47,936 nt of DNA from a virus (IMGVR_UViG_3300009788_000140:1-47936), one strand, 5' to 3'. Positions 4,970 through 37,914 are shown, numbered from the stretch's first letter. Numbers and translations are program-made. Notes: generated from the sequence alone by a model not told the origin.

Positions 4970-4991
4970 AAAAGCCCCGGCGAACCGGGGC
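4968..4991 (-). terminator. Leftward-facing intrinsic terminator
   Basis: GCCCCGG (4974-4980), a four-base loop and CCGGGGC (4985-4991) form a perfect 7-bp GC stem. On the minus strand the loop reads UUCG and the stem is followed by six U (4973-4968). On the plus strand no U tract follows. It should stop leftward transcription, opposite to the genes here. A likely source is the minus-strand gene at 9542-10035. Confidence 0.7.
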
Positions 4992-5012: not shown

Positions 5013-5213
5013 ATGAAAAGCAAGGACTCAAAGATAAACCCTATGACGGGCGTTGTAAAGACTGAAGTGCTGTCAGAGTCACTACGATCGTTGCGAGACG
5101 GAGAACACGACGCGAGGTCCTACGTGACAGGTGCACTGAAGTATTTAACTGCGCACCCCCCAAATCCCTACATTGTTCCGCTACTTAGACACGCATTGGA
5201 GAAATTCGCATGA
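5013..5213 (+). CDS. Hypothetical protein
   Basis: A 66-aa protein starting at ATG with AGGAG in the spacer after the hairpin. It is hydrophilic, with a helical C-terminal half (SYVTGALKYLTAH, VPLLRHALEKFA). It ends in an ATGA overlap with the ATP-grasp gene, so it is translationally coupled to the modification cassette. No family is recognised. Confidence 0.6.
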   Translation: MKSKDSKINPMTGVVKTEVLSESLRSLRDGEHDARSYVTGALKYLTAHPPNPYIVPLLRHALEKFA

Positions 5214-6106
5214 AGTTATGGTGCTTCAACGACAAGCAATCGAAATGGGGTAGGATGCTGTTTCTCACTGCCCGCCAACGCGGAATTGACGCCGAGCTTT
5301 TCGGCCACCCGCGCCAAGTCACTGGGCCGGGGTACATGTTCTACCGGATGGAGCAGGGTAACGATGGTACCCAGCGACGCCATGCACTTACGGTCCTCGA
5401 CAAGCCCGGCATCATCGGCGTACAGAGCCGGTCGGATATTCGGGAGTACGAAGACAAGGTGCGGCAAATTGATACGTACCGTAGGTGGATGCCAGAGACT
5501 CGGCTCGTGTTCCAACAGAAGGATTCTGCATTGGCGGCGGATGCACTCGGCTTCCCATTCATATCGAAATCACGCAGCGGTTCCGCCAGCGGTTCCGTGC
5601 GCGTGATACCAGACATGAAGTCTGCATTGGTAGAGGCGGATGCAGTTTTCGGAGATGGCTTGGTAACTAGCCGCGAGGTCCAGAAGGGCTACCTCCTTTG
5701 GCAGAAGTTTTTTCGTAACGAGCATGTGTATCGCGTCGTGCGCATTGGCAACTGGTACTGGATGTTGCGCGTCTTCAATCGCCCCAATTCACCGCTTGCA
5801 TCTGGTTCCGGTAGATTCGAGCCGGTGATACCTGATACGTATGTGAAAAGGGAGGTACTGAGTACGGCGGTGAAGTTTTTCGATGCTGCTCGTACGAAGT
5901 GGTGCGGCATTGATTTGCTGTACGACGGCAGTGAATGGAAAGTACTTGAGACGACGCTCGCTTGGGACTTGCATTCACGTGGAGCGAATGTAGACTGTCC
6001 GGTGTTCGATCGCAACGGCGTGTTACCGACAGCAGGTTGGACTGGCGCTCACCAATTTGAGATACTACTAAGAGAAATCGAACGAGGAGTTTTCGATGGG
6101 ACGTAG
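5210..6106 (+). CDS. ATP-grasp-like ligase
   Basis: A 298-aa protein with the order of an ATP-grasp (RimK/glutathione synthetase-like) fold. It has an N-terminal alpha/beta domain, FPFISKSRSGSASGSV (residues 115-130) as the Lys plus Gly/Ser-rich ATP loop, a strand pair LLWQKFFRNEHVYRVVRIG (162-180), and GIDLLYDGSEWKVLETT (233-249) as the metal-binding end. Glu247 fits the metal ligand; the usual Asn two residues later is Thr. Such enzymes join a carboxylate to an amine or thiol using ATP. The substrate is unknown. It heads a cassette with two glycosyltransferases and a methyltransferase, overlapping the next gene by 11 bases, so modification of a shared target is likely. Confidence 0.65.
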   Translation: MKLWCFNDKQSKWGRMLFLTARQRGIDAELFGHPRQVTGPGYMFYRMEQGNDGTQRRHALTVLDKPGIIGVQSRSDIREYEDKVRQIDTYRRWMPETRLVFQQKDSALAADALGFPFISKSRSGSASGSVRVIPDMKSALVEADAVFGDGLVTSREVQKGYLLWQKFFRNEHVYRVVRIGNWYWMLRVFNRPNSPLASGSGRFEPVIPDTYVKREVLSTAVKFFDAARTKWCGIDLLYDGSEWKVLETTLAWDLHSRGANVDCPVFDRNGVLPTAGWTGAHQFEILLREIERGVFDGT

Positions 6107-6866
6107 AATGCTTGAGTCGGCAGATGACCGGCTAGAAATTATCCGTGACATCACACAGGTCACGCCCTATTACAACAACCCGCACATGTTGCGCCTGCAT
6201 CTTGAGAACTGGGCCGAATATCCTTTAGAAGTGTGGGAACATTTCAAGGTTATTATCGTTGACGACGGCTCCAAGTCGTACACCGCCCAAAGCATACTCA
6301 CCGATGCCCACCCACGACTGAAAGCGCGTATACGTTTGTTCCGTGTGTTGGAAGACATCCCATGGAACCAGCACGGCGCTCGCAACCTCGGTGCGGAGAT
6401 GGCTGACGACGGTTGGCTTTGGGTAGCCGACATGGATCGCATCGTTCTGTACCCACACATGCGTATGGCAATGGCTGCAAGACTGCTCCCCAAGCCGTAC
6501 GTTTCGCGTGGCATGGACCGCCGCAAGTATTTATCAAAGGTTGATCCACCGAAGATGACCAACCAATTTTTTATACCTAAACAGGTATATTGGGAAGCTG
6601 GTGGATACGACGAATGGTATAGTGGTACGTACGGTGGAGACTTCGAGTTTCTTGAAGCGATGGAAGCCGTCTCCGGGCCGATGACGTACATGCCCGGCGT
6701 GTACCATTTTCGGTACAGCCGTCACGTAGTTGAGGATGCAACAACTGACCTCGACCGCGATGCATACTGGAAGCCTCACGTGCAAAAAGCGCGAGAGAAA
6801 AAAGCTGCCGGTGGGCAGATGATGGTTAAGCCAATTAACTTCCAATGGGAGGAAGTACAGTTATGA
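6096..6866 (+). CDS. Family 2-like glycosyltransferase (GT-A fold)
   Basis: A 256-aa protein; Shine-Dalgarno GAGGAG precedes ATG 6096. It shows the GT-A pattern: FKVIIVDDGSKS (residues 50-61) as nucleotide-binding strand and loop, GARNLGAE (94-101), the metal-binding-like DMD at 112-114, and AGGYDEWYSGTYGGDFEF (168-185), which corresponds to the acceptor/catalytic-base end of GT2 enzymes. It probably transfers a sugar from a nucleotide-sugar donor. No membrane span is present, so it is cytosolic. It sits between the ATP-grasp and methyltransferase genes with coupled overlaps. The acceptor (DNA base, virion protein or small molecule) cannot be told. Confidence 0.75.
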   Translation: MGRRMLESADDRLEIIRDITQVTPYYNNPHMLRLHLENWAEYPLEVWEHFKVIIVDDGSKSYTAQSILTDAHPRLKARIRLFRVLEDIPWNQHGARNLGAEMADDGWLWVADMDRIVLYPHMRMAMAARLLPKPYVSRGMDRRKYLSKVDPPKMTNQFFIPKQVYWEAGGYDEWYSGTYGGDFEFLEAMEAVSGPMTYMPGVYHFRYSRHVVEDATTDLDRDAYWKPHVQKAREKKAAGGQMMVKPINFQWEEVQL

Positions 6867-7417
6867 AACATTTTTACCGGGACATTCAGGGGTGGTCTTC
6901 GTTCGTTTTCTTGTATGGCGAGGAAGTTGCTAAGGCCGACGATGGTGCAATTTTTGTCGAGGTAGGTGCATGGAAAGGTAAGTCAACCGCGTTCATGGCC
7001 GTTGAAATTATCAACAGTGGTAAGGACATCGAGTTCCATACCTTTGACACTTTCAAAGGCTCTGATGAGAAGTTGCATCACGCCGATGTAGCGATTCAGC
7101 AGGGTACTCTGGAGGAAGATTTTCGTCGCAACATTCGTGACGTTGCAAGATACGTGAACGTGCACGTCGGTGACTCATCGAAATGTGCAGCCCAGTTTAA
7201 GAACAACTCCATCGATTTCATCTTCCTCGACGGTGATCACACCGAGGAAGGGGTGACGGCTGATTTAGAGGCATGGTGGCCGAAGTTGAAGCCCGGTTGT
7301 CGCATGGGCGGTGATGACATTCGATGGAAATCTGTCCTCCGCGCAGTTGAGAAGTTCTTTGCCTGCACGCCGCACATGACGGCAAACGGGAAACACTGGT
7401 GGATGGTAAAGACGTAA
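6863..7417 (+). CDS. Class I SAM methyltransferase (Methyltransf_24-like)
   Basis: The start is the ATG at 6863 in an ATGA overlap, with GGAGG ten bases upstream. The 184-aa product has motif I FVEVGAWKGKST (residues 31-42) for SAM binding, FHTFDTF (58-64), HVGDSSK (101-107), and FLDGDHTEEGV (121-131), which is characteristic of the Methyltransf_24 group that methylates sugars or small molecules and accompanies glycosyltransferases. Gly-Asp-Asp near 150 ends the core. It probably methylates the sugar or product made by the neighbouring enzymes. No DNA-methyltransferase motif (such as DPPY or a Pro-Cys motif) is seen. Confidence 0.8.
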   Translation: MKHFYRDIQGWSSFVFLYGEEVAKADDGAIFVEVGAWKGKSTAFMAVEIINSGKDIEFHTFDTFKGSDEKLHHADVAIQQGTLEEDFRRNIRDVARYVNVHVGDSSKCAAQFKNNSIDFIFLDGDHTEEGVTADLEAWWPKLKPGCRMGGDDIRWKSVLRAVEKFFACTPHMTANGKHWWMVKT

Positions 7418-8130
7418 TGCTGCGAGTAATCTGCTGGAAGTGGAAACCCCAAAACCCTGAATTTAGGAGTACCTTCAATGCACAGGCTGTTAACACGCTT
7501 CGCAATATGGTGGAGCGACACTATCACCGCGATTTCGAGTTGGTTTGTTTTACCGACGATCCTGCTGGCATTGATCCTCGGATTCGTACTATCCCCGTTT
7601 GGGATACTTATGCGAATCTTACTTCTCCCCTTGGTGATAGCTACCCTTCTTGTTACCGCCGTTTGCTTGCTTTCCGCAGTGATATGCAAGAAATTGTGGG
7701 AGGGCGCTTTGTCTCTATGGACTTGGATTGTGTCATTACGGGCGACATAACCCCGCTCTGGGATCGAACCGAGGACTTCATCATCTGGCACGCCGAAACG
7801 CGGAACACTCCGTACAACGGATCGATGTGGATGATGGACCCCGGCGCACGCGAGATCGTGTACGACTTGTTCGATCCGCTGACCTCTCCGCTCCTGACTC
7901 GTGAGTTGGATTTATGCGGTTCGGACCAAGCATGGATCGCACATATCCTCGGTCCCGATGAAGCGACGTGGGATAAGGACGATGGCATATATGTTTGGCG
8001 TACACATTTGAGGAATCGATTGTGGCAGCTTCCGATGGATGCGCGTATTGTGTTCTTCCAAGGCAAGGAAGACCCATGGGATCAGTCGGCCATTGACAAG
8101 GCTCCATGGATTCTGGAGCACCATAAATGA
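7417..8130 (+). CDS. Glycosyltransferase-like protein with DxD motif
   Basis: The ATG at 7417 forms TAATG with the preceding stop; a start at 7399 is possible but less coupled. The 237-aa product begins with a strand MLRVICWKW, then FELVCFTDDP (residues 40-49), SCYRRLLAFR (78-87), and FVSMDLDCVITGD (98-110), where DLD at 102-104 fits the nucleotide-sugar/metal motif of GT8-like GT-A enzymes. Later YNGSMWMMDPG (133-143) matches the acceptor-side region. It completes the four-gene cassette and overlaps terL by ATGA, so the cassette is co-transcribed with packaging genes. Confidence 0.65.
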   Translation: MLRVICWKWKPQNPEFRSTFNAQAVNTLRNMVERHYHRDFELVCFTDDPAGIDPRIRTIPVWDTYANLTSPLGDSYPSCYRRLLAFRSDMQEIVGGRFVSMDLDCVITGDITPLWDRTEDFIIWHAETRNTPYNGSMWMMDPGAREIVYDLFDPLTSPLLTRELDLCGSDQAWIAHILGPDEATWDKDDGIYVWRTHLRNRLWQLPMDARIVFFQGKEDPWDQSAIDKAPWILEHHK

Positions 8131-9545
8131 GTGAGATCAACGAACACACATTGGACTTTGTAACTCCACCGACGATTGGCAAGTTCATGCTTGACGATTC
8201 GTTCGTACGTCTCATTATGGGACCAGTCGGAAGTGGCAAGTCTGCTGGATGCTTCATGGAGTTATTACGGAGAGCGCGTCTACAAGAGCCGGATAGGAAA
8301 GGTGTGCGCCGCACGCGCATGGCGATCGTCCGAAACACTTTGCAACAGCTACGCCAAACCTGTATGGCCGACATTGATATGTGGCTGAACCCCATCGCCC
8401 ATTACCGAACTACCGACGCAACTATACAAGTGCGGTTTCCCCTCGGAGATGGTACGCGTGTTGAGAGTGACTGGATGCTCATCCCCCTTGATACCAAGGC
8501 CGACCAACAGCGACTCCTGTCGCTCAACTTGACCGGCGCATGGGTGTCTGAGTTTCGTGAGATTGACCTTAGTCTTATCTCTGCCCTCTCTGGACGTCTT
8601 GGGCGCTTCCCCTCGAAGGCGGTTGCACATCCGACATGGTTCGGTATCGTCGCCGAGACAAACCCACCTGATGAAGACTCAGAGTGGTACACGGCACTTG
8701 AAATCGATAGGCCACCCAACTGGGCGTTTTACAAGCAGCCCGGTGGTATGTCAAAGGAAGCGGAGAATGTCGAGAATCTGCCGGATGATTACTACCCGAA
8801 TTTGCTCGCAAATAACAACTCTGATTGGTCGGATATTCATGTACATGCGCAGTACGGAAAGTCCCTTGGTGGTCAGGCTGTTTTCCGTGCGTCGTTTATA
8901 CCGGATTTCCATATTGTCGATCACGAGGAGCTTCTACTCGTCGATGACCTACCGATAATGATCGGGCAGGACTTTGGTCGAACCCCGGCATCGTTGATCG
9001 GACAGATCGATAACAGGGGGCGACTCGTTGTGCATGACGAACTAACGTCCGAAGACATGGGTATTGAGCAGTTTATTACAAAGCTGCTTCGCCCGTTGTT
9101 AGCGTCAGAAAAGTATTTAGGTCGTCGTATCTTTATGGTGGGCGATCCGAAAGGCCGGGACAAGTCACAGGTGAATGAGGATTCCCCATTCGATGTTTTA
9201 ACGCGATTAGGGTTCGATGTGCACGCCGCCCCAACGAACTACATTGACCCGCGTTTGCGTGCAGTCGAGCAACTTCTCCTGCACCAAGTTGACGGTGGCC
9301 CGATGCTCATCATAAGCGACGAATGCACTGTAACGAACACTGCGATGAAGTATTGGTATCGATACCGGAGAAAGCAGACCGGTGTGTTGGAAGACAAGCC
9401 AGAGAAAACGCACCCATGGTCAGACGTCGCTGACTGTTTGCAGTACATGGCGTTGTCGACCAACGCGAACTATCTGGGTGTGATCATGGCCCTTATGAAC
9501 CCCAGACCGAAACGGCAAGTGCCGAACAAAGTAGGCTGGACTTAG
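8127..9545 (+). CDS. terL: Terminase large subunit
   Basis: A 472-aa packaging motor. The ATPase half has Walker A GPVGSGKS (residues 32-39), an adenine-side segment with RNTLQQLR, and a Walker B-like AWVSEFRE (138-145). The nuclease half has GQDFGRTPAS (280-289) with Asp282, VGDPKG with Asp340 and DVADCLQYM with Asp433/436, the three acidic positions of the RNase H-like fold. It translocates DNA into the prohead and cuts the concatemer. It starts in an ATGA overlap after the modification cassette. The gene after it lies on the opposite strand, which is unusual; the two stop codons overlap. Confidence 0.92.
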   Translation: MSEINEHTLDFVTPPTIGKFMLDDSFVRLIMGPVGSGKSAGCFMELLRRARLQEPDRKGVRRTRMAIVRNTLQQLRQTCMADIDMWLNPIAHYRTTDATIQVRFPLGDGTRVESDWMLIPLDTKADQQRLLSLNLTGAWVSEFREIDLSLISALSGRLGRFPSKAVAHPTWFGIVAETNPPDEDSEWYTALEIDRPPNWAFYKQPGGMSKEAENVENLPDDYYPNLLANNNSDWSDIHVHAQYGKSLGGQAVFRASFIPDFHIVDHEELLLVDDLPIMIGQDFGRTPASLIGQIDNRGRLVVHDELTSEDMGIEQFITKLLRPLLASEKYLGRRIFMVGDPKGRDKSQVNEDSPFDVLTRLGFDVHAAPTNYIDPRLRAVEQLLLHQVDGGPMLIISDECTVTNTAMKYWYRYRRKQTGVLEDKPEKTHPWSDVADCLQYMALSTNANYLGVIMALMNPRPKRQVPNKVGWT

Positions 9546-10035
9546 GGCTTGTGTTCGATCACTTCACCCTCGATCCGAACGCCCTCACCCGTGTTGATAT
9601 GGATAGCGACGTTGAACCCACCACCTTGGTTTCCACCACCTTCCTGTTGCCGCTGAGTGCGACCGGCTAATACGGTAAGTTGCTTCACAGTATCTAAGAT
9701 AGATTGGGTGCTCGCATCTGTACGGGACATTATCTTATGGAGGATTGGGAGGCTTTCTTCAAGGAGAATCTCAGCCTTCTTGTGATTCGCTTCCCTGCGT
9801 TGGCATCCCCTGAAAACGCAAGCGTTGCTTCCTGCATCATGGACACAAATGTGGGGTTGACTTTTAGGCGTTCCCATTGAGGAGCCGTGATGTCATACCG
9901 TTCACAGGCCGATTTCGCATCACACAGCCCTGCTGCTATTTCCATACATATGAGGGGGGAAAGGTGTTTGAGGTCCAGAATGGTATCCTCTGGGACTATA
10001 TCTGTCGTCATTTTTTTGATACTCTTGGTTGACAC
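9542..10035 (-). CDS. Small-terminase-like protein on the opposite strand, frame broken
   Basis: No plus-strand gene fills 9546-10064; the coding signal is on the minus strand in two frames. The first frame (10035-9730, GTG start or ATG at 10011) encodes a helical region with IAAGLCDAKSACERYDI and QWERLKVNPTF, like the helix-turn-helix part of small terminases. The natural continuation, KKAEILLEESLPILHKIM and a Gly-rich, beta C terminus ending IEGEVIEHKP, is in the -1 frame down to 9542. One extra G in the GGG run (CCC at 9793-9795 on the plus strand) would join them cleanly. I see no standard slippery heptamer, so a real indel or a sequence error is more likely than programmed shifting. The predicted intact product is about 164 aa. 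Its place between terL and portal supports a packaging role. Confidence 0.55.
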
Positions 10036-10057
10036 AGACGCAGGATAGCAGCAAAAT
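10029..10057 (+). promoter_or_regulatory. Possible internal promoter before the portal gene
   Basis: TTGACA (10029-10034) and CAAAAT (10052-10057) are 17 bases apart. The -35 is perfect; the -10 matches four of six positions. A promoter here would restart rightward transcription after the opposite-strand gene. Transcription would begin almost at the ATG at 10065, leaving no leader, which weakens the case. Confidence 0.25.
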
Positions 10058-10064
10058 CCCTATC

Positions 10065-12221
10065 ATGGCTACAGGTAATCAATTTGGCATTCCCGAGCAA
10101 CCCCAGTCTCCCGGCATAAACATGCAGGGGAAAGGCTTGCTACGCGTTATCACCAACTCTGAATTGCAGGCCCAAGAAGACGCAGATGTCGAAGCCGAGC
10201 GTCAAATTGCGGAACTGGAACAGCAGGGAGTCGAACATGCGTTGGCTTCCTATGTCCGTAGTTGTATGTCAGACATGCGTAATTTCCGTAACTCGCAGGG
10301 TATTTCCGAGCGCCTGCTCGCCGCCCTCCGCACTTATAAAGGGGAGTACGACCAGACTACATTGAAGGCCATCCAAGAGTTTGGAGGCAGTGAGGTCTAT
10401 GCCAGAGTGACATCCACAAAATGTCGCGCCGCCACTGCGCTCCTTCGTGACGTTTATCTCGGTGCCGATCGTCCATGGGACATCGAACCGACCCCACACC
10501 CCGCCATCCCCAAAGAAGTTGATCAGGATATTCAGTCGCTTGTCAATGTTGAAGTCGGTACGATGATGCAGGCGAATGTTCCCGTCGACCCACAGGCTAT
10601 TGCGGATCGTGTTTCGGTGCTTCGCAAGCAGGCCGAACGCGCTTCCAAGAAGGTGGCTGTCGAGGAAGCGGATCGAGCGGGGGAGCGTCTTGATGACATG
10701 CTCACAGAAGGTGGTTTTTACGAAGCCTTTGCTGAGTTCCTGATTGATCTTCCAATTTTTCCGTACGCTGTAATTAAAGGGCCAGTTGTGCGCCGCAAGG
10801 AGCAGACTAAGTGGGTGGACGGCCAACCGCAGCGTGTGAGCGAGCCCAAGATGTTTTGGAATCGTGTTTCCCCATTCGACCTGTATTGGTCGCCCGGTGC
10901 CTCTCACGTGAAACAAGCCGATTTTGTCGAGCGAATTCAATTATCCAGAGCGGAGCTTTCTCAGTGCAAAGGATTACCGGGCTATAACAACGACGCACTC
11001 GATGCAGTGCTTGATGCTTCGTACTCAGAGGGTTTCCATGAGTGGTGGGACACCATTGACACTGAACGCAAGCAGATGGAGGACCGGGAACGGTGGACCA
11101 GAAGCTCAAGCAATCTGATCGACACGGCAGAGTTTACCGGATATGTATCGGGTAAAATCCTACGTGAATGGGGTAAGACAGAGCAGGAAGTTCCCGACGC
11201 ACTGCAAGAGTATTTCGTCACAGCGTGGTTGGTCGATCGCTGGGTCATCAAGGTTCAGTTGAACCCGACCACGAACAATCGACCGCCCTACTATATTTCC
11301 AGCTTTGAGAAAATTCCCGGCGCGATGATCGGTGATGGATTGCCAGATTTACTCGAAGACGTCCAAGCAATATGTAATGCTTCTGTCCGTGCGTTGGTGA
11401 ATAACGCCAGCATTGCATCGGGTCCACAAGTTGTTATTAACGACAAGGTACTCGATCCCACTGAGAACGATAACCTGTATCCATGGAAGCGGTGGCATGT
11501 GAATTATGATCCGTCGCTCGCTGCCTCTGGTAACAAACCAATTGAGTTTTTCCAGCCGAAGATGAACGCCCCAGAGTTGCTTGGTATCTACGAGAAGTGG
11601 AATACGATGGGCGACGAGATTTCTGCGATTCCCCGCTACATGACTGGCAACGAGAAGGTCGGTGGTGCGGGACGAACTGCGTCTGGTTTGGCTATGCTTA
11701 TGGGCAACGCCAGCAAGACACTCCAGAACGTCGCTGCCTCTGTTGACCGTGATGTCATCGAGCCGCTTTTGTATGAGCTTTTTGATATGGTGATGCACAC
11801 CCAACCGGGTGTTTTCAAGGGCGATGAACTCATCGTCGTGAAGGGCGTCAACCATGCTGTCAAGCGCGAACAGGATCGGATGCGACAACTTGAATTCCTG
11901 CAACTCACAGCGAACCCGATTGATCAAGCGATCATGGGACCAGTTGGCCGAGCGAACATCCTGCGCAGTGTCGCCGATAACCTCGGCTTGGAGCACGAGC
12001 GCACTATCCCGGATGATGAGGAGCTTCGTGCGCAGATTGAGCAGCAACAGCAGGCTGCGCAAATGCAAGCTGCTGCCGCGAATCGCGGTGGCGGTGGCAA
12101 TGATCCACAAAATACACCCGGCCCCAAGAATGAGCGGGCTGGGCCTGAAGCAGCCAGAGAGGAAGTGGAGGGAGACTTCACAGGCCCTACTGGTAGGCCC
12201 GGAATGAGGGCGGGAGGCTAG
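10065..12221 (+). CDS. Portal protein
   Basis: A protein of 718 aa from the ATG at 10065 (a TTG at 10029 would add 12 residues and overlap the minus-strand gene). Size, composition and position right after terL and before scaffold and capsid genes match the large portals of podoviruses. Recognisable portions are a helical N terminus, an acidic/aromatic core with FWNRVSPFDLYWSPGA (about residues 264-279), the region GDGLPDLLEDVQAICN, and a long C-terminal helix with a Gln-rich stretch. The C terminus is disordered and Gly/Pro-rich. Twelve copies would form the DNA channel at one capsid vertex, docking terminase and later the tail. Confidence 0.85.
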   Translation: MATGNQFGIPEQPQSPGINMQGKGLLRVITNSELQAQEDADVEAERQIAELEQQGVEHALASYVRSCMSDMRNFRNSQGISERLLAALRTYKGEYDQTTLKAIQEFGGSEVYARVTSTKCRAATALLRDVYLGADRPWDIEPTPHPAIPKEVDQDIQSLVNVEVGTMMQANVPVDPQAIADRVSVLRKQAERASKKVAVEEADRAGERLDDMLTEGGFYEAFAEFLIDLPIFPYAVIKGPVVRRKEQTKWVDGQPQRVSEPKMFWNRVSPFDLYWSPGASHVKQADFVERIQLSRAELSQCKGLPGYNNDALDAVLDASYSEGFHEWWDTIDTERKQMEDRERWTRSSSNLIDTAEFTGYVSGKILREWGKTEQEVPDALQEYFVTAWLVDRWVIKVQLNPTTNNRPPYYISSFEKIPGAMIGDGLPDLLEDVQAICNASVRALVNNASIASGPQVVINDKVLDPTENDNLYPWKRWHVNYDPSLAASGNKPIEFFQPKMNAPELLGIYEKWNTMGDEISAIPRYMTGNEKVGGAGRTASGLAMLMGNASKTLQNVAASVDRDVIEPLLYELFDMVMHTQPGVFKGDELIVVKGVNHAVKREQDRMRQLEFLQLTANPIDQAIMGPVGRANILRSVADNLGLEHERTIPDDEELRAQIEQQQQAAQMQAAAANRGGGGNDPQNTPGPKNERAGPEAAREEVEGDFTGPTGRPGMRAGG

Positions 12222-13256: not shown

Positions 13257-14378
13257 ATGGCTAACGAACATCACGAAAATGTGCTCCCGCCCGCGATACA
13301 AGCGCAAGTGGACGCAGCAGACAAAATCATTGCCGACATGAATCTGGACCCGAACGCTCCACCGGCTCCTGATCCCGCACCGGCACCAGCCCCAGCCCCA
13401 GCCCCAGCCCCGGCACCTGCACCTGCACCTGCACCGGCACCGGCACCGGCACCTGCCCCGGCACCAGCACCAGCACCGGCACCTGCACCGGACCCAAATG
13501 ACCGGAAAGACTGGAAGCAGATGTACAGTGTCCTGAAGGGTAAGTACGACGCGGAAGTTCCACGCCTCCACGATGACATTCGCAACTCGAACAACGCTAT
13601 GCGCGGTTTGCAGGAGCAACTGGGTACGTTGCAGGCAACGGTCGCCGCGATGAAAGAGGTAAATAAGACGCCTCCAACGCCGCCTGCCCCCCTCGTCACC
13701 GATGAGGAAAGGGAGCAGTTTGGCCCGGACCTGATCGATGTTGTTGGCCGCGCTGCGCAAGAAGCTGTTCGACCTTACGTTGACCAGAGGGTCAGCGAGG
13801 TTGCTGCCAGTGTCACACAGGTGCAAGAAAGTGCTTCCCATCTTGAAACAGGTGTGGCAGAATCAAATCGTATTAGGTTGTACGAACGGTTGCATATCGC
13901 TGTCCCCGGATGGGACGTCGTTAACAAAGACCCAGTTTTTGTGACATGGCTTGGCGAAACTGACCAATATACCGGCCAGTTAAGAGGGAACCTGCTTCGT
14001 GCAGCATTTGAGCGCAACGACTCCGAAAGAGTCATTGCATTTTTTAAGGGCTTTCAAAAAGAACACGCAGTTGTTGTACCTGACCCTGACCCCGCTGCTC
14101 TGGTAGTTGACCCAGCCAATCCACCGGCTGAACTGACACCAGAACCACAGCAAACGTTGGAAGAATTGGTGGCTCCCGGAACGCCTAAAACCGGGACAAC
14201 TGGCGCTCACGATGAAGCTAATGGTCGAATCTGGACCCAAACTGATATTGAGGAGTTTTACGCGTACAAGAACGAATTCATCAAGAAGAACCCCAACCGG
14301 GAACTCCCTGATGATGTAGTAGCTCTCGAAAGAGACTTGTTCGCGGCTCAGACAGATGGGAAGGGAAGGATTCGGTAA
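13257..14378 (+). CDS. Scaffolding protein candidate with long Pro-Ala repeat
   Basis: A 373-aa protein immediately upstream of the capsid gene, the usual place for a scaffold. Residues 38-79 are almost pure alternating Pro-Ala, flanked by DPN and DPNDRK. Residues 85-200 form a probable coiled coil (MRGLQEQLGTLQATVAAM at about 118-135). The C-terminal third is mixed charge and helical, as in scaffold domains that contact coat protein. It would guide prohead assembly and then exit or be degraded. Function is assigned by position, length and coiled-coil character, not by a motif. Confidence 0.7.
   Translation: MANEHHENVLPPAIQAQVDAADKIIADMNLDPNAPPAPDPAPAPAPAPAPAPAPAPAPAPAPAPAPAPAPAPAPAPAPDPNDRKDWKQMYSVLKGKYDAEVPRLHDDIRNSNNAMRGLQEQLGTLQATVAAMKEVNKTPPTPPAPLVTDEEREQFGPDLIDVVGRAAQEAVRPYVDQRVSEVAASVTQVQESASHLETGVAESNRIRLYERLHIAVPGWDVVNKDPVFVTWLGETDQYTGQLRGNLLRAAFERNDSERVIAFFKGFQKEHAVVVPDPDPAALVVDPANPPAELTPEPQQTLEELVAPGTPKTGTTGAHDEANGRIWTQTDIEEFYAYKNEFIKKNPNRELPDDVVALERDLFAAQTDGKGRIR
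13376..13491 (+). repeat. Degenerate hexanucleotide repeat (Pro-Ala linker)
   Basis: About twenty near-identical 6-base units of the type GCACCG, GCACCT, GCCCCA or GCACCA encode alternating Ala-Pro. Third-base variation shows the repeat is selected as protein. It probably expands or shrinks by slippage. Confidence 0.85.
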
Positions 14379-14405: not shown

Positions 14406-15416
14406 ATGAGTTTTCCAGTCGCATCAACCCCCTTTCGAGGGTCAACGCCATCGGTGGCCTACACAGGGACATTCATCCCTGAAGTATGGTCAGGTAAACT
14501 TGTAGAGAAATTCTACAAGGCTACCGTTCTCGGTGCCATCGCTAACACGGACTATGAAGGCGAAATCAAGAACTTTGGTGACAAGGTTCAGATTCGTTCA
14601 CGTCCGACCATCACCATCCGTGATTACAAGGCCGATCTCGATCTGTCCTTGGATCGTCCGTCTGTTGATAAGCAAACGCTCAACATTGACAAGGGTAAAT
14701 ACTTTAACCTTGGTCTTGATGACGTTATGGAACTTCAGTCCGACATTGACCAGTTGTCGATTTGGGCCGAAGACGCTTCCGAACAGATGAAGATCACCAT
14801 TGACAGTCAAGTGCTTAACGGCTCGACCGCTGGCGATGGCACGGGTATCGTCAATTCCACCTTGCTCGACGCCAACAACGTCGGTAACACAGCCGGTGTC
14901 ATCTCTGGTGTGCTGCGGCTTGGTACCGATGGTGACCCTACTCATATCGCGAAAGCGGATGTAGGTACGGGTGCCGGTAATGATGGCTCGAACGAGATGG
15001 GCATTACAAACTATCTCGTGAATCTGGGCACTTGCCTCGATGAGCAGAACCTCCCGGAGACGGGCCGGTTCGTTGTCATTCCAGCTTGGGTTGCTGGTAT
15101 GATCAAGAAGTCCGATCTGCAAGACGCATCGTTGTCCGGTGATGGCACGTCCATCCTGCGTAATGGTCGCCTCGGCATGATCGATCGCTTCACGATCTAC
15201 CTGTCGAACATCCTTGTTCCTGCCAGTGGTTACTCCACTGCTTATCCGGTGATCTTCGGTACGAAGGCTGCTCTGACGTTTGCTTCGCAATACGTCAATC
15301 TGGAGACTCTGCGCTCCGAGCGTTCCTTCACGAATATCCTCCGTGGCTTGCAAGTTTTCGGTTATCGTATCGTGAACGGCGTAGCCCTCGGTTGCGGATT
15401 CGTCGAGAACAACTAG
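14406..15416 (+). CDS. Major capsid protein (HK97 fold)
   Basis: A 336-aa protein with Shine-Dalgarno AGGAG before ATG, after the scaffold gene. Features typical of phage coat proteins include an N-terminal FIPEVWSGKLVEKFYKA segment (residues 23-39), a strand-rich middle (KVQIRSRPTITIRDY at about 60-74), a helical spine-like stretch with IDQLSIWAEDASEQM, and a C-terminal part with GRFVVIPAWVAGM and a closing LRGLQVFGYRIVNG. It builds the icosahedral shell around the scaffold. Length fits a minimal HK97 fold without an N-terminal protease domain. A strong hairpin follows the gene. Confidence 0.88.
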   Translation: MSFPVASTPFRGSTPSVAYTGTFIPEVWSGKLVEKFYKATVLGAIANTDYEGEIKNFGDKVQIRSRPTITIRDYKADLDLSLDRPSVDKQTLNIDKGKYFNLGLDDVMELQSDIDQLSIWAEDASEQMKITIDSQVLNGSTAGDGTGIVNSTLLDANNVGNTAGVISGVLRLGTDGDPTHIAKADVGTGAGNDGSNEMGITNYLVNLGTCLDEQNLPETGRFVVIPAWVAGMIKKSDLQDASLSGDGTSILRNGRLGMIDRFTIYLSNILVPASGYSTAYPVIFGTKAALTFASQYVNLETLRSERSFTNILRGLQVFGYRIVNGVALGCGFVENN

Positions 15417-29664: not shown

Positions 29665-32600
29665 ATGTCCCTATCCTCCCTTGAGGAATATCTCGACCGT
29701 GAATTCGGCGAGCTACCAGCGTCCGGTCTTGCAGAACGGGCACAGCGGCGTGGTACGAGTTTACTAGCCGAAGCCCCGACGATACGTGCTAAAGCAGAGG
29801 TGGATCAAGCACCCTCTGGCATACCCGAGTGGAAGCCGCCGATGGATGCCCAGCCGGAAAAAGGCGGTATGGATCGTACCCGGCTGCTCGGTTCCGGTGT
29901 TGTCCAAGCTGCGGAGCTAGGTGTTGGTGCGTTGGAATATGTCGCTCGCCAAAACAAGTTTCTCCGTCCTACAGTCGCTCCTGCGATCGAGGGCGTCAGG
30001 CAGGGTCTTGCTGGGGTACGTGAGGGTATAACGAGCGGGATTTCAGAAGACTACCTTGCTCATGTTGGCGGCGAGCTTCTGACACTTGACCCTGATAAGA
30101 CCATTTGGAGGGGTGGCCCTATCGAAGTTGCCGATGCTATTTACGGCAAGTTTTTACAGTCGCTCCCATCCACTTTGCTAGTCATGTTGCCAGCCGCCCG
30201 GATGATGAGGGCAGCGCAAACTTCTGGTGCACTGACTTACTTAGGTGCGTCAGAAGGCACGCTTTCCCTCGGCGGGATACAGAACAACATCGCCGACGAA
30301 ATTACCGCTATGACGCATGAGGAACTCCTGAAAGAGTCCCAGCGTTACGCACAAGTTTATAAGGAGGTTGGCGACGAGGTTACTGCCCGCCAGAACTTCA
30401 CCGCAGAGACTCAGGGCTTGGCCCCTGTGATCGGTGGTGTCAGCGTCGCAGCGATCTCTATGGTTACTGGTCGCCTACTTAGACCTGTATTCGAGCCGAT
30501 GAAAGACGCCGCTGGTGTCCAAGTCGGTATGGGTCTGGGCAAACGGATTGGCACCGGCTTCGCAGCAGAGGCACCGCAGGAAGGTAGCCAAGGTGCCGTC
30601 GAGCGTATCGCTGAGAATGCTGCCGCCCAAGCGTACGATCAGGACCGCAGGCTGTCCTCGGGCGTAGCTGAAGCATTTGCCCAAGAAGGGCTCATAGGTG
30701 GCCTGACAGGCGGTGCTGTAACTGGTGCTGTTGGACAGCGACCACAACGTCCACCGACTCCTCTACCGCCCCCTGCTGAAGACGAGGGTGGTCAGCTTGG
30801 CCTACCGGGCTTTGGTCCAACCACGAAAGAGCCGGGCTTTGGTATTGAGCCAGAAGGCTACCGTCCTCCCGAGATGACCCCAGAGAGGGCCGCTGTACCG
30901 GGTGTCATGCATGCCGAGCAGCAACAGGATATATGGCCTGATCCGGGTACGACTGAAGGTGTCATGGTGCCACCAGAGCAACGTGCGGGACAGGGTGTAC
31001 TACCTCTCGGCATTGCTGGTACTGCCCCCCTAGCTGAACGTGGTCCCGGCCAGCGTGCGTTGACCGAGGTTGATGAGCCTATACCAGACGGGCTTGACCA
31101 ACCCACTGCGGAGCCGCAGGAGGACTTGCAGGCACAGATTGAGGACATGCGTAAGCCATCTGGCCGCAGCGCCGTCTACGTTTCACCCGAGCAAGGTCCA
31201 ACCGATCAACTGCAACTGCCGAAGGGCGCGGTCATTATTCCGAACTTCGATGGAAAGGGCGGACGGTTGATCGCGAAGAACCAACAGGCGGCTCAGTACG
31301 CACGTGAGAGACGCGCTGAAGGTGGTTCAATGCAGGCGATCATCGGTGAACTCACCATGGCTGGTACTGGCAAGCCCAACGTACGAGCCGGGTACGCCGT
31401 ACAACTGCTCGACGAGAACGGTGCCGTTGCACGTGAGTCTCTTAAAGCTACGAAAGCCGAAGCGAACGCATTGAAGAAAGAGTGGGGCGCTGATGGCGAG
31501 GTTCGTATCTTGTCCGGTCCCGAAGCACTTGCACGCAGGAGTGACATACTGGAGAAGGAACAGATTGATCTTCGCACCGAAGACCCCACTGCTGTTGCTG
31601 AAGCCACAGCCGACTTGTTCCCTGAACAGCCCCAGCCTCTTACTGGTGCCGAGCAGCGTTCAACGACTGAGGGTATAGCAGTTCGCATGTTCGATCAGGA
31701 GAACAACCTGCTTGACGAACAGGTGTATGACACCCAAGAAGAAGCCGATTTGGATGCGGAGCTTTTCAGGACTGATCCTGAGTTAGCTGACGCACGTATT
31801 GTAGTTCAGCCGGTGCGTACGAAACTCCCACCCACAAAAGCTGGGGTCACTACTACGCAGCAGATTCCGCAGAGGGAGCTTAAGGGTCCACCCGAGGGAC
31901 CGCCACCGCGTCCTACTAGTGAGAAAGTTGCGGAGCCGAAACCCAAAGAAGCGCTGCTATACCAAGACGAGATCGAGGAATTCGATGAGACTATAACGAC
32001 TAAGGAAATCGAAGACTTGCCCGAGTTCGATGTCCTTTATGTTGTGGCGTCAGAAGCGGTGAACCCGGACAAGACAACTCGCTACGACGAGAGGTCGGAA
32101 GTTAAATCTTTCAGTACTCGGAAAGCCGCTCGTGCGTTTGCAACACGTGCGCGGAACAAGGCGCAGAAGCTCGCCACCAAGTACGGTACAGAAGCTACGG
32201 AGTCGAGGATCATTGAACAGACATCGCCAGAGTTGGAGAGTAAGTTTCAGGCAGCGGTTCAGTCGAGGGCCGATATCCAACAGGGTGTTGAAGTTCCATT
32301 GGGTACGCAGTATGAAACTGCTGAAGCTGCCACAGCAGCAGCCGCCCCCGACATTGGTGCTAGGAAGGAGCTTATTAGCAAGTGGCGTAAGAAGAACATC
32401 ACTGTCTCGCAGAAGAAGCAATTCATTCGTCGCCAGAGAGCATCGGTGTTACGTCGCAAGGCGAAGGTCAAGAAGGTTCGCGATACCCCGGTCATTACTA
32501 GGGCTGGACAGAAGCTTGTCAGCACAAAAGCATTGACCTATGAAACCGTATCTGGTGAAGAAACAGTTGCAAAAGCTGCCGAGCGTGTGGCCGCAGTCAA

Positions 32601-35600
32601 GGAAGCAAACACGCGTCTCAGGTATGCATTGAATCGCGCCAAGAAGTTCCTCGGACGGTTTGAGACTGGTGGCGAGTACGGAGTGTTTATCGCCGAGAAC
32701 ACTGACGACACTGGACAGAGGACACAAGCTGCACGTGACTTCTTACGAGCACGTGATGCGTTCACACAACTTACTGAGTTGGCGCAGTCGACTCTTGCTT
32801 CAGGAAACACTAGCAACGCCCATGCAGCACTCGCGAAGAAGGTTGCTATATCATTAGAGCGCATCAAGTTGAAGAAGATGTCGCCTGATCAGTTCGTCAA
32901 AGAGTTCGCAGCTATCAGTAAGGAAACTGAAGCCATGATGCTCCGTAGGGCGAAGGTCAAGGAGTCCGTCGAAACGCGAGAGGAGAAGATCGAGAAGTAC
33001 AACAAGGAGCAGGCAAAAGCTGCCAAGCGTCTTGAAACGCTGGAGTCAGTATGGAAGGGCGATCTGGTATGGGATGAGATTGTTAATCCAATCTTCCGCA
33101 AGTTCAGCGAGATAGCGCAGTACAACGCAGCAGACCCCTCCAAGAATGCGTACTACACACCGACGACTGAAGAAGTCGAAGCACTGCGTTATGCGATGCG
33201 TACGTATCGTAAGATGACAGAACGTTACCCGACCGATACTTTTTACAAACCATTGAAGGCGCAGCTTACCTACTATGGTTTCAAATTCAACTCGGACGGC
33301 GATGTCATTGTCGAAGACTTCTCGCCGAGTGATTATTTATTGGGGCCGGGCTTCCAAGCCAAGCTCGGTATATCCAGTCAAGCTGCCGAGCCGCCGACCC
33401 AGCCCACTGCACCGGTCTATGTGAAGAAGCCTGTAAAGAAAAAGGGTGAGAGCGTTGCTGAATACAACGCACGTGTTCGTGAGTGGTTCCGCAAGAAACA
33501 ACGTAAGGGTGTTGATCCATACGGCCACGCCGGGGTAGAGACTCCGCGTATAACCGTGGATTCGCCCGTTACAGACGTGAGTGGTAAGGTTCTCGTTGGT
33601 GCGCGAATATCGCCAGTGAGTGAAGGGGTGAGCAAGGCCGTTAGCCCGACAGCGATTCGCGAAGCCCAAGAGACTGCCGAGAACCGTAGAGCGGTTCAGG
33701 ATATACGTACAGCAAGGGCGTTGCTCCAAAGGTTTAAGGATATGGTTGCACCGTCCAAGATGACGATTACCGGCATCAAGCGACAGGAGCAACGCTTCAT
33801 TCGTGGCCTGCGTAAGATCGGTGCATGGACGGATGTGTCTCCGGGTATAGGTCGTATCAGTATGGGTGGTTTCAGGTCAAGAACTTATCGTCTCGTTGGC
33901 CCCCGTTTGGATGCGCATACGATGAATAAGGCCGATGCGAAAGCGAGTGTCGCACGTATGAACATAGCGATGCCGCGTGAGTTACTGCCGGTAGCACGGC
34001 GTATGGATGTTGCACCCCCACGGCCCGGCGAACAGAGTGCTGCCGAGCGCATGGAAGAACTCGTCGAGGAGAACAACAGAGAGTTCTTCTTGGAGGAACT
34101 TGCACTCGAAGAAAACACACCCGCCTTAGATAATGCTGCCAGTGTCGTAGGTGATATGATTCGTGACAAGTATTCACGAGCGAATATCGGCGACGTACTC
34201 GATGCAATCACCGAAGCACTGCCTGAAAGCCACTTCTATCATCGCCTCGCTGTTAAGCTGAAGTCGATGGGCATGTCAGATGTGACGTTGCAATTCGATT
34301 GGGCAGGGACGAAGTTCCACGGCAAGAAGCGTAACAACTACGGTGTGTTTGACCCAAGCACTAACCGTGCGTATCTGAACCGACGTCGCATGGGTGATGA
34401 CAAGAGTGCGATGACCGGTGCGAAAGCGATACACACCATATTACATGAGACATTGCACGCCGCTACGCATCGCTCGTTAGCGCATAGCACACCGCTGCGT
34501 AACCAGATGTTCCAGATTCGTGCGGCGGCTCACCACGCATGGGCGCGTCAGTTCGGTGCCAGCACTGTTCCAGTTGGCTTGAAACTGACCAACGCAGCAG
34601 GCGACCTCGCGCCGATCGATGAGTTCGTCGTGGAGGTATTTGCTGACGAGAATATGCAAGACTTCCTGCGCGACGTACCTGTAGAGATGGAAGGCGCAAC
34701 CACCTTCCTAGCGTCTGCATGGGCGCGTATCAGAGACGCCATCGTTGAAATTCTGGGGTGGGGTAATGTACCAGAGGTTCACAACCTCCTTGACGCATTC
34801 ATGTCGACTGAGGCACAGGTGTTTGAAGGTGCTGGCGTAGCTCGTGGGGGTAGCGAGTCCTTGGACATGGAAGCCTACGATACACCGCTGCGCGACATCG
34901 CGATGCCGTTCATAGAGCGCTTCATAGGCACCAGTGGCATTCTCCAACGTGTGCGTGAGAAGGGCAACAAAGCAATCTTGGCGCTCACATCGATGGAGCA
35001 GTTTGTCGAGCGGTTCACTGGTAAGCTAATTTTGAATGGCCGTGACTTGATTCAAGAGTACGACCAGTCCTTCCGCCGCCGTAACGCTAAAGCTGCGATG
35101 CATCTCGAAGTACCGCAAGAGCTTTCTGGCAGGTGGACTAAACTCGAAACAACCAACCCTGAAGATGCTCTCGCGGTTTCGCAGGTTGGTACTGAAGCGT
35201 CGCTACTGACGATCGACCCACGTGTTGCAGTGACCGACGAAGCGAATGCGCATCTTGGTGAGGAGCTACACGCGGATCACCAGCGGCTTCACAGTGCGTA
35301 TTCAGCACTGTCAACAGAAGGCAAGGCTGTCTTCAATGATGCGCTCGACTATTACGCCAATGCGTTAGAAACAGAAACCATGTTCCTGATGCAGTCGGCG
35401 TTGCGCGGTATGCTATCGACGAGTGACACACCTGCGCTGTCAACAGAGGAATTCGAGAAGAAGTTCAGCATTGCGGAACTGAAGAAGCTGAAGACCCGCG
35501 AGGATTTATCTGGAGCGTTATCAGAGTTCTTCGAGGAGGGGGGCAAGCGCGACATACTTGACACACTTTATAAGATGTCCATGGTGCCGCGTAAGCGCCA

Positions 35601-37914
35601 AGGAATCTACATGCCCATGATGCGATACGGTGATGACATCTCTTTCGCTGAGAAGGCACGGGAAGACGTAATTTACGAGGATCGAAAGGAAGCAATGGCG
35701 AAACGAGCCGAGCTTCTCTCTGATGACCCAACGCTCGATGTAGGAGTGTTTCCAACAGAGGAAGGGAAGTTTGCATTGCGCACGGTTGAGCGGGTATTCA
35801 TCATGGGAGAGTCTGTCTCTGAAGTGGAAACACTGAGAGACGAAATGGTGGCGGACCCGAGCAATGATCTTACAGCCGATGATTTCTTCGATACACAGAA
35901 GCGGCTGGCGAAGGAAACCCACGAGGCGATAGAATCTAACGCAGCGCTCAGTAGCATACTGAAGACGCTCAGTGGGAACAACGCTGCACAAGCAGCGATC
36001 AAGAATTTCTACCTACGCAACCTTTCCGAACAGTCGTTCCGTAAGCACGAGATCAAGCGGAAGAATCGGAAGGGCGTGCGTTACGACTTGCAACACCGCA
36101 ACCTCGCAACCTATGCGAAGCAGGCGTCGTACTACACGGCCCAGCTTGAGTTCGGCTGGAAGATGAGTAAGTCGCTACGTGACATGTATGACGTAGCTAC
36201 CAGAACTAAAAGTCCGTCCGGTACCGAAGGTGCCAAGCTGACCGAAGTCGTTAAGCATTTGCGATCACGCGATGCGCTCAGTGCCGATCTGCCTACACGC
36301 AATAAGCTCGTTTCCAAGAGCATCGAGGCAACTCACTTCTTCATGCTGGCGTCGCCGTCGTACTGGGCGATCAATGCGTCACAACCATGGTTAGTCACGT
36401 TGCCAACACTGGGCGCACGTCATGGTTGGATGGCTAGTGCGTCAGCTATGAAGCAGTTCCAGAGTGCGATTTTCAAAGACCTCGCTAGGGAAGCTGCCGA
36501 GATGAAGGGCGGGCTGACAGCGTTCGGTGGTGATACAGCACGCGTCGAGCAAACGTTCAACATCATTCGCCAGATCGAGAAGCGGTTGGAGTCGGAATAC
36601 GGAGCCGATGCAAAGGGCTACGTCGAGCTTCTTGAGTACCTTCGTGCCAACCACATCATCGACATCAATGTGTTTACCGAGATGCGTGACATCGCCGTAG
36701 GCAAGAAGAAGACTGCTTGGGATAAAACCATAGATGCGTCACGTATCATGGCTCACCTGACTGAAGTGAATAACCGTGTCGTGACGGCGCTGGCTGCGTA
36801 CCAACTCGAACTCAACGAGACTGGCGATGTCAAAGCTGCCCGCGACTACGCTGGTAAGATGGTGTCGCAAACACAGTTCAACTACTCAGCGGAGAATAAG
36901 CCACCGGTCTTCCAGAAAGCACCACTCCTGTTCCAGTTCATGCAGTGGCCGCAGCACATGTACGCACACTTGATACGCAACTATCAGGGTATGGTGAAGG
37001 CGGGTGTCATGGAGAAGTCAGAAGCGCGTAGCGCTCTGCTCGGTTTGATTGGAACCCACGCTGCCGTTGGCGGTATGACAGGCATGATGCTCCAGCCGAT
37101 CAAGTGGGCATTCGGTCTGACGCTGATGGCCTTTGGTGACGAAGACGAGCCATACACATTCACCAACGCCGTCTCTGGTCGCAGCTACGATCGCATGGTC
37201 GCTTCACTTGCAGACAGTGCGTTTGGAACCACTGCGGCCACGTTTATTTCGAAGGGCATTCCGGCAGGACTCGGTATTGATCTCTCAACGCGTATGTCAA
37301 TGGGTACTGTGTACTTCGTTGATCTCCGTGGTGACAATGCCCAAAGCGTGTTAGGTAGCATGGTGGCTTCGTTCGGTGGCGCAACACTCAACCAAGGGCT
37401 CAAGTTTGCAACGGGTGCTGGGAAGATCATGGATGGTGATGTGTATCGCGGACTCGAAACGATGATGCCGAAGATCGCCCGAGATGTGATGCGGGCCGGA
37501 AGGTACTATAATGAGGGTCTGGTGAATAACGCAGGTGACACGGTGATCCCTGCATCTGAGATGAGCGTCGGTGAAGTGATGGCGCAGTTCTTCGGGTTTG
37601 CGCCGACCGACATAAGTCAGGCTTACGAAGCGCAGAACATCCTCAAAGATGTAGAGGGCTACAACATCGATCGCCGCATTGGTCTAATGCGAAGGTTCCG
37701 TGACGCATCAACAGCAGATCGCAGCGGAGTGTTGGCAGATATTAAGACATTCAATCGCAGCAACCCAGCCGAGCGAATTACCGTCTCGGCGCTACTACAG
37801 AATCGGCGAGCGCAGAGAGTGCGTGAAGCAAGGTTCGAACGATATGGAGCAAACATAGATGAACGCAAAGCGAGGTTCTACGAAAAATACGCCGACCCGT
37901 ACCGGGACGAATAA
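29665..37914 (+). CDS. Giant ejection protein with embedded metallopeptidase motif
   Basis: A 2749-aa protein, the largest gene. Residues 70-300 are hydrophobic/Gly-Ala rich (GVVQAAELGVGALEYVARQ, LVMLPAARMM), suited to membrane entry. Residues 355-480 are Pro-rich and disordered. Residues 680-1150 are charged and helical. Residues 1590-1602 hold ILHETLHAATH, a zincin HExxH (His1594, Glu1595, His1598). A further DEFVVEVFADEN (from 1652) offers a Glu as third ligand, a layout I associate with peptidase domains in large phage virion proteins. The last 500 residues resemble the LPD38 region of large polyvalent proteins. It is probably packaged, then ejected to build a DNA channel. It could also cut peptidoglycan crosslinks or proteins. 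No polymerase motif was found. Confidence 0.75.
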   Translation: MSLSSLEEYLDREFGELPASGLAERAQRRGTSLLAEAPTIRAKAEVDQAPSGIPEWKPPMDAQPEKGGMDRTRLLGSGVVQAAELGVGALEYVARQNKFLRPTVAPAIEGVRQGLAGVREGITSGISEDYLAHVGGELLTLDPDKTIWRGGPIEVADAIYGKFLQSLPSTLLVMLPAARMMRAAQTSGALTYLGASEGTLSLGGIQNNIADEITAMTHEELLKESQRYAQVYKEVGDEVTARQNFTAETQGLAPVIGGVSVAAISMVTGRLLRPVFEPMKDAAGVQVGMGLGKRIGTGFAAEAPQEGSQGAVERIAENAAAQAYDQDRRLSSGVAEAFAQEGLIGGLTGGAVTGAVGQRPQRPPTPLPPPAEDEGGQLGLPGFGPTTKEPGFGIEPEGYRPPEMTPERAAVPGVMHAEQQQDIWPDPGTTEGVMVPPEQRAGQGVLPLGIAGTAPLAERGPGQRALTEVDEPIPDGLDQPTAEPQEDLQAQIEDMRKPSGRSAVYVSPEQGPTDQLQLPKGAVIIPNFDGKGGRLIAKNQQAAQYARERRAEGGSMQAIIGELTMAGTGKPNVRAGYAVQLLDENGAVARESLKATKAEANALKKEWGADGEVRILSGPEALARRSDILEKEQIDLRTEDPTAVAEATADLFPEQPQPLTGAEQRSTTEGIAVRMFDQENNLLDEQVYDTQEEADLDAELFRTDPELADARIVVQPVRTKLPPTKAGVTTTQQIPQRELKGPPEGPPPRPTSEKVAEPKPKEALLYQDEIEEFDETITTKEIEDLPEFDVLYVVASEAVNPDKTTRYDERSEVKSFSTRKAARAFATRARNKAQKLATKYGTEATESRIIEQTSPELESKFQAAVQSRADIQQGVEVPLGTQYETAEAATAAAAPDIGARKELISKWRKKNITVSQKKQFIRRQRASVLRRKAKVKKVRDTPVITRAGQKLVSTKALTYETVSGEETVAKAAERVAAVKEANTRLRYALNRAKKFLGRFETGGEYGVFIAENTDDTGQRTQAARDFLRARDAFTQLTELAQSTLASGNTSNAHAALAKKVAISLERIKLKKMSPDQFVKEFAAISKETEAMMLRRAKVKESVETREEKIEKYNKEQAKAAKRLETLESVWKGDLVWDEIVNPIFRKFSEIAQYNAADPSKNAYYTPTTEEVEALRYAMRTYRKMTERYPTDTFYKPLKAQLTYYGFKFNSDGDVIVEDFSPSDYLLGPGFQAKLGISSQAAEPPTQPTAPVYVKKPVKKKGESVAEYNARVREWFRKKQRKGVDPYGHAGVETPRITVDSPVTDVSGKVLVGARISPVSEGVSKAVSPTAIREAQETAENRRAVQDIRTARALLQRFKDMVAPSKMTITGIKRQEQRFIRGLRKIGAWTDVSPGIGRISMGGFRSRTYRLVGPRLDAHTMNKADAKASVARMNIAMPRELLPVARRMDVAPPRPGEQSAAERMEELVEENNREFFLEELALEENTPALDNAASVVGDMIRDKYSRANIGDVLDAITEALPESHFYHRLAVKLKSMGMSDVTLQFDWAGTKFHGKKRNNYGVFDPSTNRAYLNRRRMGDDKSAMTGAKAIHTILHETLHAATHRSLAHSTPLRNQMFQIRAAAHHAWARQFGASTVPVGLKLTNAAGDLAPIDEFVVEVFADENMQDFLRDVPVEMEGATTFLASAWARIRDAIVEILGWGNVPEVHNLLDAFMSTEAQVFEGAGVARGGSESLDMEAYDTPLRDIAMPFIERFIGTSGILQRVREKGNKAILALTSMEQFVERFTGKLILNGRDLIQEYDQSFRRRNAKAAMHLEVPQELSGRWTKLETTNPEDALAVSQVGTEASLLTIDPRVAVTDEANAHLGEELHADHQRLHSAYSALSTEGKAVFNDALDYYANALETETMFLMQSALRGMLSTSDTPALSTEEFEKKFSIAELKKLKTREDLSGALSEFFEEGGKRDILDTLYKMSMVPRKRQGIYMPMMRYGDDISFAEKAREDVIYEDRKEAMAKRAELLSDDPTLDVGVFPTEEGKFALRTVERVFIMGESVSEVETLRDEMVADPSNDLTADDFFDTQKRLAKETHEAIESNAALSSILKTLSGNNAAQAAIKNFYLRNLSEQSFRKHEIKRKNRKGVRYDLQHRNLATYAKQASYYTAQLEFGWKMSKSLRDMYDVATRTKSPSGTEGAKLTEVVKHLRSRDALSADLPTRNKLVSKSIEATHFFMLASPSYWAINASQPWLVTLPTLGARHGWMASASAMKQFQSAIFKDLAREAAEMKGGLTAFGGDTARVEQTFNIIRQIEKRLESEYGADAKGYVELLEYLRANHIIDINVFTEMRDIAVGKKKTAWDKTIDASRIMAHLTEVNNRVVTALAAYQLELNETGDVKAARDYAGKMVSQTQFNYSAENKPPVFQKAPLLFQFMQWPQHMYAHLIRNYQGMVKAGVMEKSEARSALLGLIGTHAAVGGMTGMMLQPIKWAFGLTLMAFGDEDEPYTFTNAVSGRSYDRMVASLADSAFGTTAATFISKGIPAGLGIDLSTRMSMGTVYFVDLRGDNAQSVLGSMVASFGGATLNQGLKFATGAGKIMDGDVYRGLETMMPKIARDVMRAGRYYNEGLVNNAGDTVIPASEMSVGEVMAQFFGFAPTDISQAYEAQNILKDVEGYNIDRRIGLMRRFRDASTADRSGVLADIKTFNRSNPAERITVSALLQNRRAQRVREARFERYGANIDERKARFYEKYADPYRDE

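Follow-up and report, generated by a model that had tools for sequence, protein, structure and literature searches.

The window analysed here is a 47,936-b virus record from IMG/VR, probably of a short-tailed phage; it carries four contiguous enzyme genes directly ahead of its terminase gene, encoding an ATP-grasp amide ligase (ATPg), a glycosyltransferase of the GT2 type (GT-A), a methyltransferase (MT) and a second, GT8-superfamily-like glycosyltransferase (GT-B) (Table 1). The first 13.5 kb of the record are 99.8% identical to a contig of the same species, L002, which reaches 2.76 kb further left than the record's left end, so that the 47,936-b record is an incomplete genome. The four coupled enzyme genes described in the initial annotation are real, being intact in both contigs and overlapping one another head to tail: by 11 bases between ATPg and GT-A, by an ATGA at 6863 between GT-A and MT, and by a TAATG at 7417 between MT and GT-B. 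A further ATGA at 8127 joins the stop of GT-B to the start of terL, which ties the cassette to the packaging and head unit and bears out the view that it belongs to one unit with terL; the four cassette genes and terL are thus predicted to be one translationally coupled unit. The start of MT is the ATG at 6863, with GGAGGAAG just before it and an alternative in-frame ATG upstream at 6845, while GT-B starts with the ATG at 7417, with a GTG alternative at 7399. Neither the GC content nor the codon-position GC of the cassette differs notably from that of the adjoining head genes. Genes for internal virion and tail-fibre-type proteins follow downstream of the major head protein gene.

Table 1. Features of the window, with positions in the 47,936-b record.
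Feature	Position	Strand	Remarks
Perfect hairpin, GCCCCGG-CGAA-CCGGGGC	4974-4991		immediately upstream of cassette operon
ATPg, ATP-grasp amide ligase	5210..6106	+	298 aa
GT-A, GT2-type glycosyltransferase	6096..6866	+	256 aa; DMD motif
MT, SAM-dependent methyltransferase	6863..7417	+	184 aa; PF13578, TylF/sugar O-methyltransferase-like
GT-B, GT8-superfamily-like glycosyltransferase	7417..8130	+	237 aa; DLD motif
terL, large terminase	8127..9545	+	start overlaps GT-B stop (ATGA)
ORF between terL and portal	9542-10035	-	possibly small terminase
Portal / head-tail adaptor type protein	10029..12221	+	phrog_332, phrog_1216
ORF ahead of capsid gene	13257-14378		possible scaffold; PHROG 13678, unknown function
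Major head protein	14406..15416	+	phrog_267, 1e-46; candidate acceptor
Long ORF	29665-37914		2749 aa; possibly virion-delivered

Some other features of the window are recorded here in their own right. The hairpin upstream of the operon is preceded by an A-run on the + strand and is terminator-like for the minus strand. The minus-strand ORF between terL and the portal gene is split in the record by a one-base length difference and is unbroken in L002 (12303-12797, 164 aa); an ORF on the minus strand, about 157-180 aa long, fills this slot in most TerL relatives, and the sole match is a PHROG of unknown function (36773, 7e-6). The ORF ahead of the capsid gene contains a long APAPAP repeat linker. 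The N-terminal 1445 aa of the 2749-aa ORF hit PHROG 10089, “DarB-like antirestriction” (9e-11), and it is this match that makes the product possibly a virion-delivered protein.

The four enzymes of the cassette

ATPg found no match in Pfam or PHROG and only weak LysX/RimK matches in NCBIfam (5e-4 to 7e-4). Its AF2 model, built from 43 homologues on viral contigs (pLDDT 94.9), gave 451 matches against the PDB at E ≤ 0.001, of which ArgX was the best (1e-12), and its nearest folds are those of ArgX/LysX and RimK (E 1e-12 to 1e-10, TM about 0.65-0.77), so that at the level of the predicted structure a two-domain ATP-grasp fold is confirmed. The identity to these enzymes is about 12-18%, but the positions of the linker Lys, the strand Lys, the Arg, the Asp and the Glu are shared: K83, K120, R131, R175, D235 and E247 are invariant in 43/43 homologues, and we take them, by the motifs of the family, to correspond to the catalytic positions of RimK. 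LysX, ArgX and RimK couple amino acids to protein carboxyl groups, the protein being a carrier or a ribosomal protein, and by analogy the simplest guess for the product of ATPg is an amide formed at a carboxyl of a glycan or at a virion protein.

The initial annotation had pointed to the absence of the usual Asn from the metal site of this enzyme and had treated it as a clue. The loss is genuine, since the E-x-N motif reads E-T-[S/T] in every one of the 43 homologues (Ser in 26, Thr in 17, and Thr249 in the protein studied here), but it is a trait of the family, the other catalytic residues being invariant, and not special to this phage. Occasional polar substitution of the Asn is on record for ATP-grasp enzymes (PMC4431377), so that its loss is no bar to membership, and the change is characteristic of the family, whose ligase seems to be active, and does not point to decay. 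The R2K/CDC123 clade also comprises ATP-grasp ligases found in some phages (PMC4431377), but membership of ATPg in the R2K clade was considered and rejected, because it has neither the lysine arrangement that defines the clade, in which a second Lys in the RAGNYA domain stands in for the linker Lys, nor its motifs: the linker lysine (K83 in YE[DN]K) is invariant, E-T-[S/T] stands in place of ExGD, and an R2K_3 match was obtained in one of 13 members, at no better than 0.0096. A motif scan of bacterial genome contigs found no ATPg homologue; one does occur, beside protease and MCP genes, in a Myxococcaceae MAG (L217), which makes the scan non-exhaustive and a phage-only distribution unproved. 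In the searches made, nearly all members of the family come from viral contigs.

GT-A belongs to PF00535 (37.3 bits, cut-off 23.3), with relatives in TVGG_00044 of Tetraselmis viridis virus S20 (31-33%) and in gp35 of mycobacteriophage Firecracker, annotated as a polypeptide GalNAc transferase. MT belongs to PF13578 (81 bits, cut-off 26.3; 1e-22) and scores 20.3 bits (4e-4) with the TylF model of Pfam, under the cut-off of 23. GT-B, which has no match in Pfam, corresponds to the glycosyltransferase family PHROG 1962 (4e-12) and is 48% identical to TVGG_00041 of S20; the GT8 model of Pfam reaches just 0.005, in 4 of 78 members. Its AF2 model (pLDDT 96.3) has a GT-A fold, with matches in the PDB to LgtC, glycogenin and GT8 enzymes at about 1e-8 and with GT6 enzymes also top-ranked, the DxD residues D102/D104 are invariant among homologues, and a C-terminal motif of the HG..[KD]PW type is present, reading FFQGKEDPW here. 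These families support the earlier assignment of the cassette to glycan tailoring rather than to base methylation.

RimK-like ATP-grasp and TylF-like enzymes are known from cellular tailoring pathways, a point in favour of a glycan on the host surface or of a small molecule, the host polysaccharide being altered for superinfection exclusion or a diffusible glycopeptide being made. The glycosyltransferase clusters of jumbo cyanophages have likewise been proposed to vary host O-antigen (PMC7824862), but the sugar-nucleotide genes of those clusters are absent from the cassette, which also holds no membrane protein, lipid-carrier transferase or flippase. A search of all four cassette proteins for membrane-type hydrophobic segments found none, and hence no machinery for envelope assembly; as the timing of a head operon would moreover be late for exclusion, a host-surface or small-molecule product is unlikely.

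Recurrence among the head genes of other phages

A scan of IMG/VR with ATPg only gave 46 loci, or 41 distinct ones once copies were removed and the present record was added. GT-B lies within 2 kb of ATPg in 37 of these 41, on the same strand every time; among the four exceptions, two are cut off by the end of the contig, a third has its GT-B 2.7 kb away and the fourth, L171, is without it. The initial annotation had suggested a search for its gene order in other phage genomes. All four families are found together in three more loci (L174, L186 and L194), in the order ATPg-MT-GTA-GTB, permuted with respect to this record, and L181 carries GTA-ATPg-GTB. What recurs is therefore not the scattered single members that the initial annotation had named as a refutation, but a pair of ATPg and GT-B, and three more times the four-family set. 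The divergences of ATPg and GT-B are correlated (Mantel r 0.58, p 1e-4), which is partly owed to co-inheritance within phage lineages, and on the GT-B tree the pairing with ATPg switches 12 times, at least 6 of them forced by supported branches.

This near-obligate linkage bears on the possibility that ATPg tags a host protein or a translation factor and that the glycosyltransferases are unrelated neighbours. Such a role would suit the nearest solved folds, LysX/ArgX and RimK, which work on protein carriers, and phage R2K ligases have been proposed to modify host proteins (PMC4431377); unrelated glycosyltransferases are, however, hard to square with the linkage to GT-B, and the R2K hallmarks are absent from ATPg, which makes this the least probable of the readings weighed here.

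With neighbouring genes labelled by PHROGs through representatives, terL, portal, MCP, connector or tail genes were recognised within 8 kb in 31 of the 39 ATPg loci examined, and head, connector or tail genes were likewise recognisable in 58/79 loci found with GT-B alone. The cassette occupies three insertion points among the head genes of unrelated phages: directly before terL (this record and L102), between portal/head-morphogenesis and protease/MCP genes (L174, L178, L179, L180, L194 and the Myxococcaceae MAG L217), and between the adaptor Ad1 and Neck1/tail terminator (L189, L197, L202, L207, L209 and L210). Homologues of GT-B also adjoin portal, protease or MCP-like genes in Bradyrhizobium sp. 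JYMT SZCCT0428 (L215, together with GT-A), Sphingobium jiangsuense DSM 26189 (L216), the same Myxococcaceae MAG and Bosea sp. WAO (L218), putative prophages all four and possible cultivable test systems. A conserved 186-aa protein neighbours the cassette in 14/39 ATPg loci; it was considered as the acceptor and rejected, since its motifs, in a protein with no family match, look sialyltransferase/DUF115-like, an enzyme type annotated in S20.

Among close relatives by TerL, the content of the slot before terL varies. L091 (88%) and L092 (86%) have neither the cassette nor any glycosyltransferase, so that the cassette is dispensable, L011 (86%) has MT and GT-B, L102 (77%) has ATPg and GT-B, and many relatives at 66-72% carry larger glycosyltransferase islands in which GT-B is the immediate or almost immediate upstream neighbour of terL; the slot is modular within the TerL clade of this record. 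The slot is inverted in one TerL subclade (L134-L137), where terL is closely followed by GT-B and GT-A on the other strand. Searches of GenBank phages, at the DNA level with the cassette plus terL and by tblastn with ATPg, gave no match, and none of Rhizobium phage RHph_TM3_14A (43% TerL), Rollin, vB_Pun_Y3 and Hodr has a comparable annotated cassette adjoining terL. The cassette is no isolated oddity but belongs to a modular type of head-operon island that recurs among phages.

The same distribution weighs on a modification of the phage genome, in which a sugar or aminoacyl group would be built on a modified base and restriction evaded. The cassette does adjoin a packaging gene, and in some phages, such as Shewanella phage Thanatos, modified bases are decorated by glycosyltransferases. 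Against this, the cassette genes sit in the head operons of many phages and not in replication modules, and the GT6/GT8-like fold of GT-B and the GT2-like GT-A are of carbohydrate- or protein-type transferases. A Pfam scan of 37 further proteins of the record and L002, from a genome that is incomplete and has many small ORFs without a family, found no base hydroxylase, thymidylate-synthase-like protein or dCMP hydroxymethylase, the domains in the scanned replication and accessory proteins being just of DUF927 primase-type, SNF2 helicase, GNAT and lysis-type. With no base-modifying gene found in the portions scanned of a genome that is not complete, DNA modification becomes less likely, and we regard it as improbable.

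A putative virion glycosylation island with a ligase

The closest described arrangement is that of the Cluster O mycobacteriophages Corndog and Firecracker, in which an O-methyltransferase and three glycosyltransferases lie in the head operon between portal and protease, followed by the capsid gene; in Corndog the enzymes were detected in infected cells and a modification of the capsid was proposed (PMC4351075; L214 in our set). The cassettes of L174, L178 and L194 occupy a similar slot, between portal and protease, and Firecracker gp35 is homologous to GT-A (hmm 1e-11), whereas gp34 and gp36 belong to other glycosyltransferase families, unrelated to GT-B or ATPg, and gp33 is only weakly related to the cassette MT. 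Neither phage has an ATP-grasp ligase in this region; gp34 (289 aa), of similar size, was tried as a candidate and rejected, not being homologous to ATPg. The claim that the set is undescribed thus stands in that no described system with these four enzymes was found in the literature searched, but not in the sense that nothing resembles it, since this analogue without the ligase exists.

A second comparable island, in Tetraselmis viridis virus S20/SI1 (NC_020840, L007), also has a head-operon location, adjoining head closure Hc1, and combines homologues of GT-A (31%) and GT-B (48%) with methyltransferases; it differs in having no ATPg and in its extra sialyltransferase-like, GT-D-like and FkbM-like genes, and no functional study of it was found in the accessible literature. 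In the cluster F1 mycobacteriophages Che8 and Rita, which are likened here by description and not by gene comparison, phage-encoded glycosyltransferases are also present and the glycans are reported to be covalent on the major capsid protein (PMC11256854 citing Freeman 2023); no ligase is described for them, and in the F1 relative Maravista the glycosyltransferase genes lie near the 3' genome end and not in the head operon. No paper on an ATP-grasp ligase coupled to virion glycosylation was found among the open-access papers searched. The new element with respect to known phage virion-glycosylation islands is thus the ATP-grasp ligase, which itself differs from LysX/ArgX and RimK in its Ser/Thr for Asn and in nearly always adjoining a glycosyltransferase; among the neighbours of the cassette, moreover, no gene for a carrier of the LysW type was noticed.

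Taken together, we consider it likely (probability roughly 0.6) that the cassette glycosylates a virion protein with a methylated glycan and that its ligase, using ATP, forms an amide on either the glycan or the virion protein. The gene context favours a virion protein over DNA or a small molecule as substrate. “Morons”, phage genes without virion roles, are also common in late operons, so placement alone is no proof of the target. Expressed late as a virion glycosylation island, GT-A and GT-B would transfer sugars from host nucleotide sugars to a virion protein, or extend the glycan, or both, the most likely acceptor being a product of the same operon, either the major head protein or a connector; MT would methylate a sugar hydroxyl, and ATPg would make an ATP-driven amide bond, its most likely partners being an amino acid or amine and a carboxyl of the glycan or the virion protein. 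We infer the presence of the product on the virion, its carrier protein, the order of the steps and the substrate of the ligase. A more specific proposal, which we put forward tentatively, is that the ATPg family, hitherto undescribed, is a near-obligate partner of the GT8-like transferase and equips a virion glycan, or a virion protein that is already glycosylated, with the amide of an amino acid or amine. The coat glycoproteins of such tailed phages would then be both methylated and aminoacylated, a virion modification of which the papers searched hold no earlier account.

Few tailed phages are known to have glycosylated virions, and those found are mycobacteriophages. If the proposed function is true, a head-operon island present in many uncultivated phages, and adjoining head genes in genome records of alphaproteobacteria and myxobacteria as well (putative prophages), would make coat glycosylation a widespread phenomenon with a varied chemistry. 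The pair of ligase and glycosyltransferase predicts a specific new chemistry, an amide-linked residue on a glycan or glycoprotein, and ATPg together with GT-B in a head operon may serve as a marker for finding cultivable examples.
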